Part shown: positions 23,629-48,127 of the stretch, piece after piece
Layout: each line of letters begins with the position of its first letter
How positions within the stretch are numbered: the stretch's first letter is position 1
Source: a virus
Strand: one strand, 5' to 3'
Virus record (IMG/VR): IMGVR_UViG_3300033984_000416
Coordinates: 1-64,000 of that record
Length of the DNA: 64,000 nt
Notes under the pieces: generated by a model
The model's database searches: none
What the model was told of the DNA's origin: nothing
The model's input: only the letters and a program-made list of their open reading frames with translations
Made by a program: the position numbers and the translations under genes

Positions 23629-25059
23629 TTAATACGAATTAATAGAATTAGTTTGTATTATTACTGGTATTATATCACTATACGCTGTGGTGTTTAGATT
23701 GTCACCACAAATAGTTGTGTAATTTTTTTCATTTTTAACTCTATAAAATAGTTGAGTGCCTACCGTACCAGAAGCTGTAAACCCTAAATTATAATAATTG
23801 ACACCAATAACGTAATCAGTTGTTCCACTATAATAAAAACTACTAAATGTGTTAGCAGTGCTAACTTCCAGTGAAAAATAACCATTCACCAACAAAGGTG
23901 GGGTCGGTATTGTCCATGTAACTATAGGGTTGTTAGTGTCCAATCCGTTTGCAACGCTAATAATTGGAAAATAAACAATTGTAATTATATCGTCAACCAT
24001 AATGTCACCCTCAAGTATTATCCTTTTTGTATTGCTTATCGATTGATAGAAGTCAATCCCAAAAGCCAACGAAGCACCATTAACCATAACCAGTAAAGTA
24101 TTATCACTCAAAGGTGTTATTGATGTATATATTTCGTATCGATTTGTTGTTGTGTTGTAATAAATTAAATTAGCACCTTCACCATCTGTTGCACCACTAG
24201 TAATTGCTGTATTAACGTCAATAACATCTGATATTAAATTATTACCACCAGTACTAGTGTAAATAACGGTAACAATATCATCGTCAAATGTTTCACCACT
24301 TAACGTTGCGGAACCACCACTAAATATATAATCTAAATCTGGAGCCAGAACTAATCCATTCAATGTTAAAACAAAATCACCAATAATGTTGGTTGGGAGT
24401 GGAATTACTGTTTGTTTATCAACTACTGGTAAAACTCTTTGTATTAATTTATTAATACCTGTGTTGTTACTATCGTTATTAACAAATATTGGTTTTTCAG
24501 CTTGTTTTATCGCTATAAAATAATAATCTAACTCATTATTGTAAATACCGTATTGTGTCCCACTAAGAAAATTAGAAGTATCAAAGTTTTTACCTATTCT
24601 GTTTAAAAAATCAGTACATGCACTAAATTGATAAAATCCTTTAACAATATAGTCACCGTCCAAAGATAAATTATTACCAACGACATTTTGAGTTGTAATA
24701 TTTGTCGCACTAAAAGCTGAATAATCTATTAATGGCGACATATAAACTGGTGTTGTTGAAAACCCACTAAATATTGGTGTGTACTTGTATATTCCAAACT
24801 TAAACTTAGCGTTGGTGTTAACAAAGCTATTGGTATTTCCAGTAAAATTGAATGTTAACGGAATTGTTTCGGTATCACCAGTAATAACATACGATGTGCC
24901 ACTAGTTGAACCTGTGCAGTCTAATTTAGAAGCACCACTAAGGTAAAATAACGGTGTATCGAATACGCAAATATCTGAACTCATATTGACATTCAGAATA
25001 TCTTTGTTTCTTACAGCACCATTTTCATTTTGTATGTATATTCTTTCTTGATATCTCAT
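23629..25059 (-). CDS. Tail/fibre-associated structural protein
   Basis: A 476-residue, beta-rich, Thr/Asn/Ser-rich protein. Two related stretches (VLTLNGLVLAPDLDYIFSGG... and LVMVNGASLAFGIDFYQ...) each end in DDIxTxxY. This 'NG..L..g.DY' pattern is common in small repeated domains of phage fibres and tail appendages. It starts by one-base overlap with the stop of the gene upstream. It lies between the beta-roll fibre and the collar-type proteins, so a fibre or fibre-connector role is likely. Confidence 0.65.
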   Translation of the reverse strand: MRYQERIYIQNENGAVRNKDILNVNMSSDICVFDTPLFYLSGASKLDCTGSTSGTSYVITGDTETIPLTFNFTGNTNSFVNTNAKFKFGIYKYTPIFSGFSTTPVYMSPLIDYSAFSATNITTQNVVGNNLSLDGDYIVKGFYQFSACTDFLNRIGKNFDTSNFLSGTQYGIYNNELDYYFIAIKQAEKPIFVNNDSNNTGINKLIQRVLPVVDKQTVIPLPTNIIGDFVLTLNGLVLAPDLDYIFSGGSATLSGETFDDDIVTVIYTSTGGNNLISDVIDVNTAITSGATDGEGANLIYYNTTTNRYEIYTSITPLSDNTLLVMVNGASLAFGIDFYQSISNTKRIILEGDIMVDDIITIVYFPIISVANGLDTNNPIVTWTIPTPPLLVNGYFSLEVSTANTFSSFYYSGTTDYVIGVNYYNLGFTASGTVGTQLFYRVKNEKNYTTICGDNLNTTAYSDIIPVIIQTNSINSY

Positions 25060-25298
25060 TAATAACTAATTTCTAGTGTTATAGGTTTTATATTATAAGC
25101 ATTTTTTAACCCAAATGCCAATGGTATTTCTAGAGCAGCTGTAAATTCCGCTCTAGAAAGGTTTTGCGTGAAAGCTACAAATCCATTTAGGTTTATGTAG
25201 TCTTCTCGTTGTATCTCACCAGTTACCCTAGAAACGTAGTTGATGCTATCAATTACATTTGGGTAAACTTCTCCTTGTATATTTCTAAATAATATCAT
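25059..25298 (-). CDS. Small tail-region protein
   Basis: 79 residues, soluble, no motif. It follows the beta-roll fibre gene after 1 nt and overlaps the next gene by one base, so all three are translationally coupled. A small fibre chaperone or connector would fit the place, but this is only inferred. Confidence 0.6.
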   Translation of the reverse strand: MILFRNIQGEVYPNVIDSINYVSRVTGEIQREDYINLNGFVAFTQNLSRAEFTAALEIPLAFGLKNAYNIKPITLEISY

Positions 25299-25299
25299 A

Positions 25300-28200
25300 T
25301 TATACGTATCTAACCATTAATTGACCAATTGATGTTCTATAAACACCACCCAAAGGTACTCCAGCGGTTATTGCAGCCGCATTGTCGGCTGCAATAGCTA
25401 GTGTTTTTATATTTAATTTATCAACGTATGTTGTGTCAGCAACCAAACCAATAATATTAGCACCCAATACAACGGTGTTGTTACCACCAGCAGTCGAACC
25501 AGCACCATGAACAAACGCTGTTGCACCACTTGCTATTGAACTAGAACCACCAGCATGCGAATTTTGCCCACTAGCTGTATTTTGACTATTTTGAGCATGT
25601 GCATATGTACCACTAGCTAGTGTTAAAATCCCTTCAGAGTGTGAACCATAACCACTAGCTGTTGTTTTCCACCCTTCAGCGTGACTAATAGGTCCGCTAG
25701 CTAATGTTTCAACACCTTCAGCATGACATGCAAAGTTAGTTGCTGTACCACCAGTTAAATTAAAACCGAGTGACCCACCCTCAGCGTGGCTACTATCACC
25801 ACTAGCAAGTGTTTTATAACCTTCAGCATGGCTTGCTGTACCAGTAGCACGTGTATAGTTACCTTCAGCATGACTTCCATTAGAACCACTAGCTGTTGTT
25901 CTATCACCTTCTGCGTGACTTGCAGAACCGCTAGCAAGTGTAATAGTTCCCTCAGAGTGTGAACCAGAAGTTGTTGCTGTTGTAGAATAACCTTCAGCGT
26001 GTGATGCGTTACCACTGGATAATGTTTGGAAACCTTCAGCATGAGAACTAGTACCACTAGCAATTGTTTGCCAACCTTGTGCATGCGAATTACCACCTGT
26101 TGCTTTTGTGTAATAACCTTCAGCATGGCTACCAAACGTACCACTAGCAATTGTATTTTGACCTTCAGAGTGTGCGTAATTAGTTGTTGCTGATGTCAAA
26201 TAACCTTCAGCATGACTTGCAGTACCACTAGCTAGGGTTTGATATCCTTCAGCGTGTGCGTATGCTGTTGTTGCTGAAGTCTGCATACCTTCAGCATGAC
26301 TCGCAAAATTACTTGCTAGTGTATATTGACCTTCAGCGTGTGAATATTCGCCATATGCTTTTGTGTAACCACCTTCAGCATGTGATGTTAAACCACTTGC
26401 AACTGAACCTTGACCTTCAGCGTGAGAGTTTTGACCAGTAGCACGTGTATCTGCACCTTCAGCGTGGGATTGAGAACCAATAGCTTTTGATAACCAACCT
26501 TCAACGTGACTTGCACCACCACTAGCTTCAGTATAATAACCTTCAGCGTGGGCTGAATTACCGCTAGCTATGGTATAACTACCTTCCGCATGTGAGTTAA
26601 TACCAATTGCTTTTGTTTGTTCACCTTCAGTATGTGAATATGCACCACTAGCTATTGTTCTATACCCTTCGGCATGTGCATATGTACCACTAGCTAGTGT
26701 TTGATAACCTTCAGCGTGTGTACCCATTGTTGTTGCTGATGTATAACTACCTTGAGCGTGTGAATTATCACCACTAGCAAGTGTTTGATATCCTTCAGCG
26801 TGTGCTGCAACACCACCAGCTATAGTTAATTGACCTTCAGCGTGACTCGAAATACCACTAGCTGTACCACCCTTGATATTACTAAGATAAGTACCACCTT
26901 CAGCATGTGCACCAATACCACTTGCTATTGATTTATAGCCTTCGGCATGTGAATGATAACCACTTGCTATTGATTGATAACCTTCAGCATGTGTGTAAAA
27001 TGTTGTTGCTGAAGTTTCTTGACCCTCAGCGTGTGAGTAAGTACCAGTGGCTTGTGTTAATCTACCTTCAGCATGTGATGCATCACCTAAAGCATATGTG
27101 GTTAAACCTTCGGCATGTGAATAAAGACCTTTAGAAAATGTACTATCACCCTCAGCATGTGAATAATTACCACCAGCTATTGTTCTATACCCTTCGGCAT
27201 GTGCTGTGCTACCACTAGCTATTGTCCAATAACCTTCAGCGTGTGCTGATGTTGTTGTTCCTGTTGTTTGAAAACCTTCAGTGTGTGAATAATCACCACT
27301 AGCCTTTGTTTGTTTACCTTCAGCATGACTAGCAATACCACTTGCCGTGCTTCCACTTCCTTCAGCCACAGCACTTATATTTGTTGCGGTACTATCACTA
27401 TTACCCAAAACAGCTGATGCTGTTGCAGTTCCAGCCGTCCATATTGTATTTGTTGGTGTTGTTCCACCAGATAATGTGCTAGCATCTCTATATTTAACAG
27501 TACCGTCTGATACCCTAACCAAAACTTGTGTTTGAGTATTGTCATTTGGAACTGTTTTTACGTTTAATCTATCAACGAATGTTGTGTCAGCAACCCCACC
27601 AGTTATGTTAGCACCCAACACTACAGAGTTAAGTGCATTGGCTTGTGAGTTATAACCATGGACAAAAGAATAATCATTTTTGGCTGTTGAGCCAGAACCA
27701 CCAGCATGTGAGTAATTACCTAACGCTTTCGTATAAGTACCTTCGGCATGTGATGTTATACCACTAGCTAACGTGTATTGACCTTCAGCATGTGAATATT
27801 GTGTCATGGCTGATGTTAGATACCCTTCAGCGTGTGAAACATCACCTAGAGCTAGAGAACCATACCCTTCAGCATGTGAATAATCACCATTGGCTTTTGT
27901 ATAACCACCTTCAGCATGTGTAGAATAAGAACCGTTAGCTTCTGTGAATGAACCTTCAGCGTGACATGCACTACCATAAGCTGTTGTTCCCCAACCTTCG
28001 GTATGTGAACTTTCACCTATAGCCCATGTCATAGCACCCTCAGCGTGAGCACCATCACCACCAGCAATAGTCATATATCCTTCGGCATGTGCTGATAATC
28101 CAGAAGCAATGGCTCCAGTACCTTCAGAGTGTGAATAATTAGCGTTTGCTTGTGTGTTATAACCTTCAGCATGACTTGATTGACCACTAGCAGTTGTTCC

Positions 28201-29451
28201 ACTACCTTCAGAGTGTGAATAAAACCCCAACGCTTTTGTGTAAGCACCTTCGGCATGTGATGTATAACCACTAGCAAGTGTACCTCGACCCTCAGCATGA
28301 GCAAAAGATGTTGTTGCTGATGTTTGGAAACCTTCAGCATGTGCCCCATCATTTATTGCAAGTGTAAGGAAACCTTCAGCATGTGAATAACTACCCGTAG
28401 CACGTGTTTCACGACCCTCAGAGTGTGCGTAAGCACCACTAGCGTGGGTATAATAACCTTCAGAATGTGAATAAGTTGTAGCGGACGTTCCTCTACCCTC
28501 AGCATGGCTAGCAAAACCATAAGCTAACGTAACCATACCTTCAGCATGACTTGCATTACCTTCAGCAGTACCACCATTAAGATATAAACCTTTTCCAGCA
28601 TATCCACCACCTTCAGCATGTGCACCTTCACCACTAGCTGTTGATATATACCCTTCAGCGTGTGAAACATATCCCAAAGCTTGTGTGTTATAACCTTCAG
28701 CGTGACTTGCAAAACCATCAGCTGTTGTTTCTTGACCTTCAGCGTGTGAATAATCAGAATTAGCTGATGTGTTATCACCTTCAGCGTGACTACCAATACC
28801 CTCAGCACGTGTATAGTTACCCTCGGCATGACTTGCTATATTATTTGCAGTAGTTGATTGGCCTTCAGCGTGAGAGTTATCACCGTTAGCATTTGTTTGA
28901 TAACCCTCTGAGTGTGAACCTTGACCGTTGGCGTAAGTTTCATTACCCTCAGAGTGTGAATACTGACCGTTAGCTTCAGTGATTGAACCTTCGGCATGAC
29001 TTGAGTCACCACCAGCTAGCGTATTAGCACCTTCAGCGTGTGAACCATTATTACCAGAAGCAACAGTACCAGCACCCTCAGCATGGCTTGTATCACCAAT
29101 AGCATGTGTTGATGCACCTTCAGCGTGTGATTGACCACCATCAGCTATTGAATTCTGACCTTCGGCATGACTAGCAGCACCGTTAGCTTGTGTATTTCTA
29201 CCTTCAGCAACAGCGTAGTCCGCTATAGCATCCAACCCAGAATCATTTTTAGCTTTAATAGAGAAATTACCAGTTGAACCCGAAGTCCAGTATAAGTCAT
29301 CGTTTGAATTGTTCAATAAATCAATGATTTGTTGAATTGTAGCTTTGTATGAGCTTCCACCTGGGTCTTGGCTTGTATCGTTAACCAATACAATGTGTAG
29401 TAAATCGGTTGTACCTATTGTAGGTGCTATTATTCTGTTTGTTAATTTCAT
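25300..29451 (-). CDS. Giant YadA-head-like beta-roll tail fibre (SHAEG repeats)
   Basis: A 1383-residue protein built almost wholly from 14-residue repeats of the type SHAEG-xx-TxAxGxx, the left-handed beta-roll signature of YadA/Hep_Hag head domains. The N-terminal 70 residues are non-repetitive and probably attach to the tail. There are two repeat modules (about 75-600 and 700-1320), each ending in a similar non-repeat block with VVLGANI...VADTT(F/Y)VD(R/K)LN(V/I)KT. The C-terminus (GGVYRTSIGQLMVRYV) is of a kind often seen in phage structural proteins. It probably forms trimeric adhesive fibres. A late-type element is 15 nt upstream. Confidence 0.88.
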   Translation of the reverse strand: MKLTNRIIAPTIGTTDLLHIVLVNDTSQDPGGSSYKATIQQIIDLLNNSNDDLYWTSGSTGNFSIKAKNDSGLDAIADYAVAEGRNTQANGAASHAEGQNSIADGGQSHAEGASTHAIGDTSHAEGAGTVASGNNGSHAEGANTLAGGDSSHAEGSITEANGQYSHSEGNETYANGQGSHSEGYQTNANGDNSHAEGQSTTANNIASHAEGNYTRAEGIGSHAEGDNTSANSDYSHAEGQETTADGFASHAEGYNTQALGYVSHAEGYISTASGEGAHAEGGGYAGKGLYLNGGTAEGNASHAEGMVTLAYGFASHAEGRGTSATTYSHSEGYYTHASGAYAHSEGRETRATGSYSHAEGFLTLAINDGAHAEGFQTSATTSFAHAEGRGTLASGYTSHAEGAYTKALGFYSHSEGSGTTASGQSSHAEGYNTQANANYSHSEGTGAIASGLSAHAEGYMTIAGGDGAHAEGAMTWAIGESSHTEGWGTTAYGSACHAEGSFTEANGSYSTHAEGGYTKANGDYSHAEGYGSLALGDVSHAEGYLTSAMTQYSHAEGQYTLASGITSHAEGTYTKALGNYSHAGGSGSTAKNDYSFVHGYNSQANALNSVVLGANITGGVADTTFVDRLNVKTVPNDNTQTQVLVRVSDGTVKYRDASTLSGGTTPTNTIWTAGTATASAVLGNSDSTATNISAVAEGSGSTASGIASHAEGKQTKASGDYSHTEGFQTTGTTTSAHAEGYWTIASGSTAHAEGYRTIAGGNYSHAEGDSTFSKGLYSHAEGLTTYALGDASHAEGRLTQATGTYSHAEGQETSATTFYTHAEGYQSIASGYHSHAEGYKSIASGIGAHAEGGTYLSNIKGGTASGISSHAEGQLTIAGGVAAHAEGYQTLASGDNSHAQGSYTSATTMGTHAEGYQTLASGTYAHAEGYRTIASGAYSHTEGEQTKAIGINSHAEGSYTIASGNSAHAEGYYTEASGGASHVEGWLSKAIGSQSHAEGADTRATGQNSHAEGQGSVASGLTSHAEGGYTKAYGEYSHAEGQYTLASNFASHAEGMQTSATTAYAHAEGYQTLASGTASHAEGYLTSATTNYAHSEGQNTIASGTFGSHAEGYYTKATGGNSHAQGWQTIASGTSSHAEGFQTLSSGNASHAEGYSTTATTSGSHSEGTITLASGSASHAEGDRTTASGSNGSHAEGNYTRATGTASHAEGYKTLASGDSSHAEGGSLGFNLTGGTATNFACHAEGVETLASGPISHAEGWKTTASGYGSHSEGILTLASGTYAHAQNSQNTASGQNSHAGGSSSIASGATAFVHGAGSTAGGNNTVVLGANIIGLVADTTYVDKLNIKTLAIAADNAAAITAGVPLGGVYRTSIGQLMVRYV
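25490..29230 (-). repeat. Long array of imperfect 42-bp coding repeats
   Basis: The 14-residue SHAEG units give a degenerate 42-bp tandem pattern along nearly 3.7 kb, visible on the plus strand as recurring ccttcagc(a/g)tg(t/a) every 42 bases. It is broken at 27350-27700 by the non-repeat block between the two modules. Confidence 0.92.
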
Positions 29452-29505: not shown

Positions 29506-29832
29506 TTAAGGTATTAATTGCAATTTAAAGATATCTATTGCTCTATGAAAGTATAAGATATCTATTTTGTATTCTAAGCTTTCTCTTAGAATTTTTGTTA
29601 AGTCTACACCAGGAAATTCAGCGATTAAAATATCGTAATCTGATTGAGCATCCCAGTAGCCATGATGATGACTACCGAAAACATAAACATCAGTTGGTTT
29701 TCCTAGAGTTTCCTCAACCTTAGCTTTTATACTATTGAATATATTTTGTTTTTCCAATGGCAAATCAGTAAAGACTTGCAATGAACCTCGACACTCTCTT
29801 TGTCGTCCTTTAATTATTACTATCTTTTCCAT
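29506..29832 (-). CDS. Minimal nucleotidyltransferase (pol beta superfamily)
   Basis: A 108-residue protein with the complete catalytic pattern of the nucleotidyltransferase fold: GSHHHGYWDAQSDYDILI (G53, S54, D65, D67) and a third acid in YKIDILYF (D91). The family transfers nucleotides (AMP, CMP and others) to proteins, RNA or small molecules; MNT antitoxins belong here too. No HEPN partner gene lies beside it. It is inserted between two giant tail genes, 1 nt after the upstream stop. Its substrate is unknown. Confidence 0.8.
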   Translation of the reverse strand: MEKIVIIKGRQRECRGSLQVFTDLPLEKQNIFNSIKAKVEETLGKPTDVYVFGSHHHGYWDAQSDYDILIAEFPGVDLTKILRESLEYKIDILYFHRAIDIFKLQLIP

Positions 29833-41171: not shown

Positions 41172-44100
41172 TTATACTATAATTTTACAACCAGTACTAT
41201 CAGTTACTACAGTAGTAATCACTTGAGTACTTGGTACTTCATATTGTGTTAACACAGTACCATCGTATACGTTATAAGGTGTTGACGAATAAGGTTGAAC
41301 CCCACCAAATACACTTAACCTCTTAATCACATTGGTAGATGGTGCTGGGGCTGGTATATTACCCCATTGACCTGTTAGTGTTGTAACTGGTAACACTATG
41401 TTTGGAATTGTTAAATTTGGATAAACAACTGGTAATGTTGGGTTTGGTGGTGGTAGTTGTGCTGGATTTGGATAACTAAAATAGACATACCCATCAATTA
41501 TATTGTATGGTTTTCTATAAGTAATTTCGATATATACTGAACATGAATAAGCTGGTGCACCACCAACTTGCGGCACTGTAAGTGTTACTGGTTTTAAGTT
41601 TTCTAGTAAAGTAAATTTAACCACAGTAGGGGTTGTTGTTGTTACACTTACAGTTCCAGCTTGATTCCAACCAGTTACCCATATGGTTGAGCGATAACCG
41701 TCAGCACCATTGTAACCACCTCTATAGTGAGTAGTATCATCTGTTGAATAGTTTTGCAAGTCATTAATATTAAAGCTAAAAGTAACTTGATTTGCTACAC
41801 ATTGTTTTGAATTATCAACACCATTAACGTTAATCCTTAAATCACCTTGTGGTAATATTATATCTGTTTTTTCATAAGTAATTTCGTTACTAAAACATGT
41901 ACCCATTGGGTTAGAAATACGAATAGTTATATTTTCACTTACACTCTCTGCTGGTACCAATAATATTAATGGTAATGTTGAGTTAACAAACGTAAGAGTT
42001 TGTGAAAGCCAAATCAGTTCACCAGTAGCATCTTCTGCATCATCAATATTATATTCTACACGTGTTGTTGGTGAATAACCACCATATGTTATATAAAATG
42101 GAAGGCGGTAATTGTTTGGGTCACCACCAGCTGCAATACTAGGATTAGCGTCTTGAACTTCAGTATCTGTAGGTTTAAGAATAACCATATAAGGGTTCAA
42201 TGATAATACCGTACTAACAACAGATATTGGTACACCGTTATTTGCATCTACAACACTACTAATATATGTAGCAGCAGAAAGACCAGTTATATTAGTCCCT
42301 TCTTCGTAAAAATTATTAGCACCAATAGTTGAAGCCGAGTATGGTGGTAGACCACCATTTATTGTAAGTAATATACCACCATTATCAGCACCAAAACATG
42401 TTAAATTAGTAGTTGTACTAACCACAGTCAATGCAGTTGGCCCAGTTACTAATAAATTAGTAACCGAAACTTGTGCACCAAGTGTATCGGTAACCGTTAA
42501 TGTATAACCATTAGTGTTAGGGTCGAACACGCTAATACCAATATCAATAGGTAAACCTGTAATGATTTGTGGTGTTGTTAAGTTAGTTATTGGTGGTGTA
42601 CCTGTTGGTGATACTACAATACCTTGACTATTAAATAATTGATATTCATATGTACCAGCACCATTACCACCACCAGCTGAACTAATAGTTATTTCACCAT
42701 TAGACGAAAGAAGGCTGGTACAATTCTCACTAACATAAGCATTTGCAAATAAAGGTCCTGGTGGTAAAATTTGAATTGTTTGCATTACAAAAGTACCATC
42801 TGAACTAGTGATTTCAATTGTGAAAGTTCCAACTGGTAAGCCAGTTATAATACCTTGACTAATACCGTTACTAGTGATAATCTGACCAGAATCTGTAAAA
42901 CCATCTGGTCCACTAATAATATAATTAAACGGACCAACACCAGCTGTAATTGTTACAGTTACGGTAGCCGTTAAATTTGAAGATGTAATTGGAATTATTG
43001 ATATCGATACATTAAATTCTACTACCGATTTTGGTATACATGTCGTAAAGAATTTTTGATTCAATTTATCTAAACCTGTTTTACCAGGAAGTATCCCAAA
43101 ATAAAAGAAATAAGAATGTTTTGGTTGTGAAAAGGCTGTAGCACCATTTGCTGCGTAACCTCTAAAATCAACATAGTCTTGACCGTTAGTGAACACAGTT
43201 GGTTTACATGGTGATGGTGTTGTACCACCACCAGCAAAATCGTAAACACCACAATCACCTAAGTTAAAGTTAGTTGTATATGGGTAATTTAATGTCCATG
43301 TATTGGCAGATATATTTAAGCCATAGAAAACATCTCTAAACCATTTTGGTCTATCACCATCATCTATATCTAAATCTGCTAACCCGATAATACCGTTAGC
43401 TGATGGTCCAAGTGGTGCTCTATTTTCATCTAACTCCACACCAAATTCACACTGATGTCTAATGTTAAGACATTGTCTATTATCAACGTGTAACCCCAAA
43501 CAATCTATATCAAAAAATATACCTATTGTTGAACCACCTATTCCGCATAAACCAGTTGTAAGCACAGTAGCTTGGTCATCAGCAACTTCTTGAATATCTG
43601 GGGCCATTTTGTATGTTGTTGGTATAAGGAATGGTTGTGTCTTTGGAACACCTTGCCAGTCACAACTAAAAACAGCACCTAAATTTATAATTTCAGTTGC
43701 AAATATTTTCTTTGAACCATCATGATTTGATGCCGCATAATAAAATTCAGAACCTATTTTTTTGATTAGACCTTCTCTTAATGATGATTTACGTGAATTA
43801 AATTGTGAATCTTTACCACCGCCATTATAACAAACGTCAACTAGGCTATTTGCTCTACACGCATTATCTGAATTACCGTCATTGTTTCCGTCTACACCAC
43901 CTTGGATTATCCCAAAGTCTGGTCCACAGTCATATTCACAAAATTTCTCAATTTTTTTTCTTTTTTTCTTATATTTTAACAAAAACCCATACAAAGAACC
44001 ATTAACCCAATCATTGTAGAAATCGAATTGAAATAAGTTCATAGATTTTGCCATTTCAAAAGCAATACAGTCATCTAAACCAACTAAACTAAAAATACCG

Positions 44101-45869
44101 CTATGACCAAAATTATCACCATTGTAATATGTTGGATAATCTGGGTTGGTAGCATCATAAGCTTTACCGCTATCTAAACCACCTTTAGAACAACCTGGTG
44201 CATATATGTTGTTTTCACCATCATTTGGACATTTAACCGTAATACATGGGATATATTTTAGTAAATCAATAATTAACCTACACGCAAACCCTAAGAAACC
44301 AAATATTCTAACACGTAGTATTCTTCTACGACTGGCACGACATAAAGCCCTCATTACTTTGTTCCACGCTTTAAGTAAAATGTTAATAATACTTAAGACT
44401 ATGTTTATAAGAGGTATAATAATTGCATTCATTACGGCTATCAAAAATGCCACAATTTTAATAATCAAACATATAATAAAAAACAAAGCTGTAAATGATG
44501 TGTTAACTTTGTTGTATGGGAAAGGTGTTTTATCACCACCACAATCATCAACATTTTTAACACCAGTTATGCTTCTGGTATGTATACCACCACCTAGTGC
44601 TGATGTTGTTTGATATCTTGATATAAAATTACTTACAGAATATATTTTGTTCCAATATAAACTTCTAAAGCTACTTTTTTTAGTTTTATTACCAAATTCA
44701 TAGTCAATTTCACCCTTTATATTTGGGTTGTGTGGAACTAAATATTTTGCTCTAGTTCTAAGTCTACCTTCACCACCTGTTTGGTCCATACCAATCCTAA
44801 ACCTTACGTTGGCTCTAGTTGCTAACCCTTTATTTGGGTCATCAGAAGGTTGTAACGTTCCGTTTTCAGAAGTAACCATATAATCTAAGTTCATAGGTAT
44901 TTGATAGGCCCATGCACCACTTTCATCCATTACTCGACCACCTTCTATGTCAAATCTTTCAATTGACCCGTCTAGTTTTTCTCTAATCATTTCAATCGTA
45001 CCTTCGTTGGCTACTTGCGTACATAGAGCACCAACACTTCGTCTAGGTCTACAGTTCTTACTAACACTATCTTTATCTTGGTCACCAAACATGCTACCCA
45101 TAAAGATAGCTGATGGTTTGATATCATAGTTTAAATCTAAATCAATACGAGTAATACCAATCTCACATGTATCTGTATCACCCCAAAATGGTTGTACGTT
45201 AACACCAGCGTTGGCTGACTTAACTTGAATCAACTTATCTAAGTTTGTACCGCCTTTGTATTTTGTAGGGCTTTCAAAGAATTTTTCTGGTGTTCCTTGA
45301 GTAATGCTGTCGTAAGGTCTTTGTGATGCAATACCGATATCTGAAATATCAGCATCAACATGTATTGTGTATGTCCCTAGTGGTACACCAAAAATCATGA
45401 AGTCACCAGCGTAGTTAGTGGTAGTTGTAAATTTGTAATATTTACAGTAGACTTCTAACATGTCTACGTTGTCTAATATTTCTCTTTTATTTGGGAAGGT
45501 ACCTATTTCAGTAAAACATTCATTGTCTGTTTCTGAACTTCTAGGTAAAGTATTATATCTAATACCGTTGTCATCTTTATCTGTAACTATTTCATACGGA
45601 TATAACCCTTTTATTTGTGGGTTATTTTTATCAACATCATCCAATGGTATAAAAATACTAACTCTGGCATTTGGAACACCAAAACCACTATTAATTATTA
45701 CTCTACCAGCAACTACACCATAGTCGGAACAATAGTTTGTATATGCTTCTTCTTGAGTAATCTTTAACGAAAGAATTTCGATAAAATCGAAATCTTGCTC
45801 TACTTTTACTTTAAGGTATTTATCACTACCATTTGGTGTAGTTCTTATTCTTACGGTATTATTTGACAT
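41172..45869 (-). CDS. Giant tail protein with SprB-like repeats and membrane segment
   Basis: A 1565-residue protein with an unusual domain mix. The N-terminus holds a carboxypeptidase-regulatory-like beta domain (about 50-190: VVAGRVIINSGFGVPNARVS ... GVPLGTYTIHVDADISD). A strongly hydrophobic, helical segment with basic flanks lies at about 450-543 (ALFFIICLIIKIVAFLIAVM). Residues of about 955-1215 form at least three SprB-like repeats (LTCFGADNGGILLTINGGLP followed by PYSAS; GLPVGTFTIEITSSDG), the adhesin repeats of gliding Bacteroidetes. It lies between gp6 and the baseplate-type genes. It could be a host-contacting spike or membrane-inserting component. Confidence 0.78.
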   Translation of the reverse strand: MSNNTVRIRTTPNGSDKYLKVKVEQDFDFIEILSLKITQEEAYTNYCSDYGVVAGRVIINSGFGVPNARVSIFIPLDDVDKNNPQIKGLYPYEIVTDKDDNGIRYNTLPRSSETDNECFTEIGTFPNKREILDNVDMLEVYCKYYKFTTTTNYAGDFMIFGVPLGTYTIHVDADISDIGIASQRPYDSITQGTPEKFFESPTKYKGGTNLDKLIQVKSANAGVNVQPFWGDTDTCEIGITRIDLDLNYDIKPSAIFMGSMFGDQDKDSVSKNCRPRRSVGALCTQVANEGTIEMIREKLDGSIERFDIEGGRVMDESGAWAYQIPMNLDYMVTSENGTLQPSDDPNKGLATRANVRFRIGMDQTGGEGRLRTRAKYLVPHNPNIKGEIDYEFGNKTKKSSFRSLYWNKIYSVSNFISRYQTTSALGGGIHTRSITGVKNVDDCGGDKTPFPYNKVNTSFTALFFIICLIIKIVAFLIAVMNAIIIPLINIVLSIINILLKAWNKVMRALCRASRRRILRVRIFGFLGFACRLIIDLLKYIPCITVKCPNDGENNIYAPGCSKGGLDSGKAYDATNPDYPTYYNGDNFGHSGIFSLVGLDDCIAFEMAKSMNLFQFDFYNDWVNGSLYGFLLKYKKKRKKIEKFCEYDCGPDFGIIQGGVDGNNDGNSDNACRANSLVDVCYNGGGKDSQFNSRKSSLREGLIKKIGSEFYYAASNHDGSKKIFATEIINLGAVFSCDWQGVPKTQPFLIPTTYKMAPDIQEVADDQATVLTTGLCGIGGSTIGIFFDIDCLGLHVDNRQCLNIRHQCEFGVELDENRAPLGPSANGIIGLADLDIDDGDRPKWFRDVFYGLNISANTWTLNYPYTTNFNLGDCGVYDFAGGGTTPSPCKPTVFTNGQDYVDFRGYAANGATAFSQPKHSYFFYFGILPGKTGLDKLNQKFFTTCIPKSVVEFNVSISIIPITSSNLTATVTVTITAGVGPFNYIISGPDGFTDSGQIITSNGISQGIITGLPVGTFTIEITSSDGTFVMQTIQILPPGPLFANAYVSENCTSLLSSNGEITISSAGGGNGAGTYEYQLFNSQGIVVSPTGTPPITNLTTPQIITGLPIDIGISVFDPNTNGYTLTVTDTLGAQVSVTNLLVTGPTALTVVSTTTNLTCFGADNGGILLTINGGLPPYSASTIGANNFYEEGTNITGLSAATYISSVVDANNGVPISVVSTVLSLNPYMVILKPTDTEVQDANPSIAAGGDPNNYRLPFYITYGGYSPTTRVEYNIDDAEDATGELIWLSQTLTFVNSTLPLILLVPAESVSENITIRISNPMGTCFSNEITYEKTDIILPQGDLRINVNGVDNSKQCVANQVTFSFNINDLQNYSTDDTTHYRGGYNGADGYRSTIWVTGWNQAGTVSVTTTTPTVVKFTLLENLKPVTLTVPQVGGAPAYSCSVYIEITYRKPYNIIDGYVYFSYPNPAQLPPPNPTLPVVYPNLTIPNIVLPVTTLTGQWGNIPAPAPSTNVIKRLSVFGGVQPYSSTPYNVYDGTVLTQYEVPSTQVITTVVTDSTGCKIIV

Positions 45870-46306: not shown

Positions 46307-48127
46307 TTACTTAACCCTTACAATAATATCCATTGTTGGGTATTTAATCTCAAACATAGTTGTTGGTTCACCGAAAAGAGTATAATCGTCAGTTAAATCA
46401 ATTTGTCTAGTTTCTGCATCAATATATGGTTGTGAAATCTCATTAAGACTGTATTTACCACCACCTACTTTATTAAATATTCTCAACCCAGTAACATTCA
46501 AAACACCACCAACGTTATTAATCGTTTCTAACAATGGTGATATATAAACATTATCACCCATACCAAATTTGTTAATATCTAAATAGTCTTTTACGTCAGT
46601 AATAACTTGTGATATGATTTGAGATGATGGCATTTTCTTATCGATAAATAAATCAATTTCAAATGCTAAATTAACAATTCTACCATTTGTTATTTGAACA
46701 TAATCATTAAGCATTCTATAGTCAGCTAAATATGTTGCAATATTATCCCTTAAAGCACTAGTAGATTCATTTGTAAGTCTACCATTAGCATCTAAACCTA
46801 ATATATATGTTTTTATTTTATTTTGTTCCTCAAATACACCACATCTAAATGGTACGCCAAATTTTCCAGGCATTTGAGCTATTCTTGTTTGATAATCTTT
46901 GATGGTTACAGCTCTATTTTGTGATGAAAAATTATATTTAACCATATTTCTAATTTCTTCAACACTTGGTACATCTTTACCACCCAAAGCTGGGAAAGCG
47001 TTGTTAACTTTAAGTGAATTTCTAACACTAGTATTTATCGAGTCGTCCGAACCATTAACACTCATGCTTAAAATACCCAAAGATTTCAAAACATTTGGAC
47101 CTAAATTAGTATCGGCACCACCACCAACTCTATATTTTACAAACATTGTTGTATTTGCCGTTGGTACAATACCTAACGATAAATTATTAACAAAATCACC
47201 TATTTGATTAACCAAAGCAGTGTTGGAATCAAAATCACAAAGACTACTAGTATCTTGTGCACCAGCACCTAATATAATCTTGGTAAAACCTAAATCTGTA
47301 TATTCAGTTATAAATTTTTTAACTGTTGATATCCATTTTCCTGGTCTTACACCAGCATTATCAGTAAATTTGCTATTGTCTTCAATAAAAACTTTATCTT
47401 CAGCCAAAGCGTCTACTTCAAACCATCTATTACTTAAGTCTAGAAATTGGTCCAACGAAGGTTCTTTAATGAAATTAGTACCTGTAAGTGTTATTATAGA
47501 ATCTATAGATAAAACATTATCTTCTGGTAAAACTATTTCTAAAAATGGTCTTACATCATTGGTTGTTATAACTCGTTTAAATACTTTGGTAAAACCATTT
47601 TTTACTATTTCTCTTTTGGTTATTGTATAATTAATCAACGTACCATTTGCGTTAAAATTAGGTATAATAATCCTATTTGGAATTCCACCTATTGTAAATG
47701 GACTAGCAAAATCAATATCATCACTGGCTTCGAATACTTTACCACCACCACTAACTTGAGAACCAGCTCTAATTATTGGTGCATACGATACGTCAAAGGT
47801 ATCACCCAAAACAGGTAAGGTTACGCTAAAATCTACAATTGTAACACTAGGTCTTTTTCCTGGAATTTTTAAACCAAACGTTCTAGCTAGCGATAAAACT
47901 GATTTACGCTCTTTAGCGTAATCAATTTGTGTTTCTTGGAACATTCTATCAGTATTGGTTGAAAGCATGTCACCGACAGCCGCATTTAGCTCTAAAAGCA
48001 TCATACCGACACTTGCGTCATTAAAATCATTAAAGATATCTGGATAGTATTGTTTAACCATGTTAACTAAGTCTGAACGAATGTCAGCGAAGTTTCTAGA
48101 AGTGTATTGTATTCCTTGATTTGCCAT
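46307..48127 (-). CDS. 6: Baseplate wedge protein gp6 (Baseplate J-like)
   Basis: A 606-residue homologue of T4 gp6/P2 gpJ, which forms the wedge ring of the contractile-tail baseplate. Diagnostic parts: the N-terminal RNFADIRSDLVNMVKQYYPD, the DASVGMMLLELNAAVGDMLS segment, and the central VPSVEEIRNMVKYNFSSQNR followed by AVTIKDYQ. It lies 6 nt after the gp25 stop, as in many phages where these two are adjacent. Length is close to T4 gp6 (660). Confidence 0.92.
   Translation of the reverse strand: MANQGIQYTSRNFADIRSDLVNMVKQYYPDIFNDFNDASVGMMLLELNAAVGDMLSTNTDRMFQETQIDYAKERKSVLSLARTFGLKIPGKRPSVTIVDFSVTLPVLGDTFDVSYAPIIRAGSQVSGGGKVFEASDDIDFASPFTIGGIPNRIIIPNFNANGTLINYTITKREIVKNGFTKVFKRVITTNDVRPFLEIVLPEDNVLSIDSIITLTGTNFIKEPSLDQFLDLSNRWFEVDALAEDKVFIEDNSKFTDNAGVRPGKWISTVKKFITEYTDLGFTKIILGAGAQDTSSLCDFDSNTALVNQIGDFVNNLSLGIVPTANTTMFVKYRVGGGADTNLGPNVLKSLGILSMSVNGSDDSINTSVRNSLKVNNAFPALGGKDVPSVEEIRNMVKYNFSSQNRAVTIKDYQTRIAQMPGKFGVPFRCGVFEEQNKIKTYILGLDANGRLTNESTSALRDNIATYLADYRMLNDYVQITNGRIVNLAFEIDLFIDKKMPSSQIISQVITDVKDYLDINKFGMGDNVYISPLLETINNVGGVLNVTGLRIFNKVGGGKYSLNEISQPYIDAETRQIDLTDDYTLFGEPTTMFEIKYPTMDIIVRVK

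Follow-up and report, generated by a model that had tools for sequence, protein, structure and literature searches.

The stretch of DNA analysed here (the window, 64,000 nucleotides) is part of a virus record of 121,432 bp. It encodes a UvsX-like recombinase (phrog_97, 4.9e-9), a DnaB helicase, a primase, an SbcCD-like nuclease, a ribonucleotide reductase and a baseplate wedge protein. The wedge gene (46307-48127, minus strand; phrog_219, 9.9e-18) marks the tail module, and its product is 26.7% identical over its full length to the baseplate wedge of Flavobacterium phage immuto. A tape-measure protein and a DNA polymerase are encoded outside the window in the same record. This set of UvsX, replication and tail genes indicates a T4-like phage, and the host is likely to belong to the Bacteroidota. 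Between the baseplate-wedge and primase genes, in the same order as in immuto, lies an ATG-initiated open reading frame of 1383 aa (25300-29451, minus strand) that falls in a PHROG family of unknown function (phrog_25468, 1.9e-200). Directly downstream on the same strand is a 79-aa ORF (25059-25298), conserved beside the fibre gene in relatives (L046, L060) and a candidate fibre partner, e.g. an assembly or tip protein. Directly upstream, also on the minus strand, a 108-aa protein with a nucleotidyltransferase fold (29506-29832; Pfam NTP_transf_2, 4.3e-5) has syntenic counterparts in L015, L018 and L057; that it is part of the fibre system is not proven. Rfam and promoter/terminator scans near the fibre gene returned nothing useful.

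In the fibre protein we count 77 SHAEG-type units of 14 residues in which the second motif residue is His (59 HAEG, 9 HSEG, 3 HTEG, 1 HVEG, 2 HAGG, 2 HAQG and 1 HAQN), a repetition far beyond chance. The earlier note had counted more than seventy such repeats, and its coordinates and strand are exact. The layers fall into two arrays on the minus strand. Array 1 (residues 80-622, 27586-29214) has 35 H-layers at residues about 94-594, and array 2 (residues 694-1339, 25435-27372) has 42 at residues 708-1311. In both, an AVAEG layer comes first and the same hydrophobic cap (FVHG...SxA...NxVVLGANI) last, and the total comes to about 83 layers once these opening layers and the closing FVHG and VVLG layers are counted. 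A linker of 71 residues (VADTTFVDRLNVKT...TQVLVRVSDGTVKYRDASTLSG...IWTAG; residues 623-693, 27373-27585, minus strand), of the same kind as in L046, connects the arrays. They are preceded by an N-terminal module of about 52 aa (LTxR...TDLxHIVxxxDTSQ..GSSYK; 29296-29451, minus strand), the probable virion attachment, which occurs once in the genome and is predicted to form strands and a helix (AlphaFold monomer). A C-terminal tip follows (..VADTTYVDKLNIKT..AAAITAGVPLGGVYRT..; residues 1340-1383, 25303-25434, minus strand), its counterpart in relatives being GGLYLL...VYxKP. Neither terminal module matched named phages, and Pfam found no chaperone domain (S74 or G2) on the window fibre. Trimerisation chaperone domains of these kinds are common in phage tail fibres, though not universal.

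Layers are spaced by 14 residues nearly everywhere, except for +1 insertions, a single 13-mer and the GG...GGTA inserts of three layers (residues 277, 848 and 1221). The first of these loop-insert layers (residues 277-300; 28552-28623, minus strand) resembles inserts in L046, L060 and a paralogue described below. Conservation is strong at motif positions 1, 2, 3, 4, 5, 8, 10 and 12, and positions 6, 7, 9 and 13 are nearly free. The search pattern by which layers were located biases the residue counts at the His and Glu positions in part; by a less biased check, neither array has an extra-long gap devoid of a His layer. Since the units are on average only 57% identical in nucleotides (49% in amino acids) and TRF detects only fragments of the array, its description as an array of 42-bp repeats is only loosely true. 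Likewise, the claim that the protein is one of the longest of its kind holds among the approximately 40 loci examined, where the next longest have 62, 61 and 59 units, but not as a global statement. The two-array structure, the caps, the linker and a second SHAEG gene outside the window go beyond the earlier note.

This second gene, the paralogue (genome positions 112500-116330; 1276 aa, 50 H-layers), ends in a Peptidase_S74 domain (7.8e-16), matches several PHROG tail-fibre families and heads a cluster of further repeat proteins. A layer-order match between it and the window gene was rejected, nothing exceeding shuffles. A 619-aa protein in the fibre cluster has BspA-type leucine-rich-like repeats (L014:4028-5887; weak LRR_5). 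At genome positions about 107589-110591 (L014:5889-8891), a 1000-aa probable tail fibre combines collagen-like repeats, NVAIG-type layers and an Ice_binding domain (PF11999, 1.6e-23), and at about 101843-104338 (L014:143-2638) an 831-aa repeat fibre consists of 17-residue SNFxG..AG..A repeats with no Pfam match, a type found in L016 too, behind the N-terminus of the window fibre. In the tail module of the window, a protein of 1565 aa (41172-45869) carries an SprB repeat (PF13573, 1e-9), known from a gliding adhesin of Flavobacteria. Long SHAEG arrays also occur in Bacillota (L061, L062, L063 and Priestia plasmids); those on the Priestia plasmids bear a peptidase G2 annotation, and the C-terminal end of L061 is G2-like by eye.

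Loci of related phages, obtained by IMG/VR scans with the flanking genes, demonstrate that layer number varies at this position. In the alignment, the N-terminal module is kept at the locus in nine phages, even in L016 and L053, whose distal repeats differ (SNFxG repeats in L016); the SHAEG forms L046, L057, L056 and L060 share the C-terminal end as well. The number of layers falls from 77 in the window (35+42) through 62 in L046 (22+40, two arrays joined by a window-type linker), 28 in L057 and 15 in both L056 and L058 to 11 in L060 and 6 in L052. There was no SHAEG fibre gene at the locus in L018, L047 and L059.

Gain and loss of layers, already proposed for the adhesin BpaC by its authors (PMC9543794), is real in the fibre gene family. 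In L056 and L060 the flanking genes are 92-93% identical in nucleotides and both fibre ends are common, and the layers differ in number (15 vs 11) and kind. Exact repeats of 99 and 89 nt, respectively, at a spacing of 84 bp mark a fresh tandem duplication of two layers in each. Between the window and L015, whose N-terminal modules are 91% identical in DNA, there are two compensating one-layer (42-bp) indels, and the layers form a mosaic of 55% to 93% identity. Strict unit-by-unit orthology of these two arrays was rejected in part: over residues 94-190 in-register identity is at background (0.55-0.60), and it reaches 0.67-0.70 after a shift of one layer. The window's own copy looks settled. It retains an older block duplication (198 bp at 80%), and a recent expansion was rejected on the low identity of the units, the lack of an adjacency effect and a longest exact repeat of 30 bp. 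The earlier suggestion that recombination driven by UvsX varies the length of the array is upheld in part: layer number does differ among same-locus relatives and a UvsX-like recombinase is encoded, but the window array shows no recent expansion and nothing ties the recombinase to it. The layer differences might instead stem from exchange of whole fibre genes between phages, as the foreign repeat type behind the same N-terminus in L016 and the likeness of the GG-insert layers of L060 and L046 could suggest. We consider this rather unlikely, as the common ends and flanks of L056 and L060, their differing layers and fresh 84-bp duplications, and the single 42-bp indels between the window and L015 argue for changes within the gene.

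As the earlier note proposed, the repeats appear to be of the YadA-like left-handed beta-roll head class, an assignment well supported by the solved YadA-type heads that their profile retrieves. A single-sequence search of the PDB returned BpaC (5e-7), and a profile of twelve SHAEG segments returned BpaC (3.3e-33), CbpF (2.2e-13), a cell surface protein (9gh4; 3.6e-9), a Hep_Hag head (9.9e-8), YadA (1P9H; 3.7e-6), UspA1 (0.0013) and EibD (0.0061). The profile scores carry a high low-complexity bias, and the ranking is nonetheless consistent; only YadA-type heads stand above noise, which comprises rubrerythrins and sulerythrins (E 0.58 and above). The layers have the 14-residue period of YadA heads with a conserved Gly at @8 and a small residue at @6. 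Pfam YadA_head scores 18.7 bits on the whole protein against a cut-off of 25, reaches 28.8 bits with neighbouring copies in frame and is clear in other SHAEG proteins (e.g. L061, L027 and L056). YadA_head was the only domain that Pfam found, and there was no YadA-type membrane anchor of the kind that trimeric autotransporter adhesins have. Structure prediction, which the earlier note had proposed for a trimer as a check, did not yield a match to a solved beta-roll: two AlphaFold monomer models (pLDDT 74.7 and 80.7) form 14-residue coils with, where they are regular, one longer strand and one of three residues, and Foldseek of both against the PDB found no YadA-type head (best E 0.05 and 0.11). 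The roll therefore rests on sequence and is unproven in three dimensions. In a viral structure library, residues 1100-1383 matched YadA-like models from giant viruses and phages, which lend weak support because they are predictions of similar sequences. The best of these were YadA-like proteins of Pithovirus LCPAC406 and Mimivirus LCMiAC01 (40-42% identity); SHAEG-like rolls are thus also present in giant virus records.

The SHAEG motif departs from the usual core chemistry of this class. In BpaC numbering, Gly is invariant at @8 and Ala conserved at @6, and the trimer core is made up of @5 and @7; these two are hydrophobic in YadA, and BpaC was in 2022 the only known case of a hydrophilic @7 (PMC9543794). 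A HMMER alignment places S-H-A-E-G on the S-T-A-N/S-G of BpaC, which puts His at @5 and Glu at @7. Interior layers of the window protein accordingly lack hydrophobic residues at both positions. A hydrophobic core is typical of YadA heads and not strictly defining, because solved BpaC already departs from it. Hydrophobic residues are found in the end layers only: the first array layer has V@5 (AVAEG or SVAEG) in the window and its syntenic relatives, and in the last layers @5 is F/V/I/L and @7 is often L/I/F (SFVHG, TIVLG), with SAFIIG and SNLVFA as end layers in other phages. Such a pattern is what one would expect of a three-fold core of charged residues with a hydrophobic seal at either end. 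Speculatively, some 77 rungs of His (@5) and Glu (@7) might line the axis of a beta-roll trimer, engaged in salt bridges or holding metal ions or protons between the hydrophobic seals; such a rod might be pH- or metal-sensitive, and its layers would be interchangeable, so that length varies between sister phages. No His/Glu core was found in the solved structures met in this analysis, and such a core, if true, would be a chemistry absent from those beta-rolls.

The protein could also be a monomeric or other beta-solenoid rather than a YadA-type trimer, with the His/Glu ladder outside as a binding face. The AlphaFold coils, each of 14 residues and two strands, resemble no solved YadA-type head and can be read in this way, as can the presence of His and Glu where YadA has hydrophobic core residues. 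Against this, the only proteins ranked by the profile are trimeric heads of the YadA type, with G@8 and A@6 aligned in register. The last layers regain hydrophobic residues at @5 and @7, and the first layer has one at @5, as one would expect if these positions faced a core. Moreover, the same His and Glu recur across phages of different hosts and in Bacillota, which fits a structural role better than receptor specificity. We hold such a solenoid to be improbable.

The best reading, and in our view a very probable one, is a homotrimeric YadA-type tail fibre of a T4-like phage that probably infects Bacteroidota, with layers changing by recombination. The earlier interpretation as a phage tail fibre agrees with the position of the gene in the tail/baseplate run, with the conserved N-terminal module and with the annotation of the syntenic immuto relative as a tail spike. 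The anatomy of the gene, its class by sequence, its synteny and the layer-number differences between relatives are observed; the trimer, the virion location, the receptor binding and the role of any recombinase we infer. The N-terminal module of some 50 residues would fix the fibre to the tail. Two successive left-handed beta-rolls of about 38 and 45 layers (~18 and ~22 nm) would then make up a stiff rod, interrupted by a short joint where one roll gives way to the other and ending in a tip of about 45 residues. At a rise of 4.8 A per layer (PMC9543794), the ~83 layers correspond to a rod of ~40 nm. The conserved Ser-His-Ala-Glu-Gly and Ala/Gly positions would build the roll, and the variable positions and GG...GGTA loops its outer surface. 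Rod length would set the reach of the fibre, and the variable surface or the tip would be shown to the host. Whole 14-residue layers or pairs of layers may be duplicated, lost and exchanged by recombination, with the gene ends kept. That the product is instead a surface or secreted protein made during infection, outside the virion, seems very unlikely: SHAEG arrays do occur in cellular proteins of Paenibacillus and Priestia, but the tail-module position is conserved between distant phages, the N-terminal module is common to different repeat types and the paralogue bears the fibre chaperone S74.

The closest solved counterpart is the C-terminal head of BpaC from Burkholderia pseudomallei (7O23; PMC9543794), which shares with the window protein beta-roll layers of 14 residues, G@8, A@6, a hydrophilic core and the return of hydrophobic residues at @5 and @7 towards the C-terminal end. 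The core is Thr/Ser/Asn in BpaC and, as we infer, His/Glu in the window; BpaC has 42 layers, a full head being estimated at ~20 nm (PMC9543794), against ~83, and it is an outer-membrane adhesin, whereas the window protein is the product of a phage gene with a fibre N-terminus. The YadA head (1P9H) has the 14-residue repeat and is matched by the SHAEG profile, but its core is hydrophobic, its layers are far fewer and it is an autotransporter. The immuto tail spike (QQO92087.1; L009) shares the SHAEG layers and the wedge-primase position; it has 10 counted layers near the C-terminal end of its 1053 aa, and its N-terminal part and cap (SAFIIG...NLVFASG) differ. Bacillota and phages also have SHAEG proteins (L061, Priestia plasmids, L022) in which the same layers form long arrays; these end in an autoproteolytic Peptidase_G2, which the window fibre does not have. 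YadA-like domains in phage fibres are already known, e.g. the C-terminal YadA domain of a pelagiphage tail fibre, which lies in a fast-changing region; that fibre differs in its T7-like N-terminus, and two long arrays are not described for it (PMC3909814).

No account of such long arrays, of a fibre with two rolls or of a phage locus at which layer number varies was found in the literature, and a search on the motif SHAEG returned unrelated papers only. The window gene is probably an unusually long member of a known structural class with a probable role as a phage fibre. SHAEG proteins are common in both phages and Bacillota, so that a single structure would account for many proteins that lack annotation. 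The locus itself offers a natural series, from 6 to 77 layers behind one attachment module, in which fibre length can be related to adsorption.
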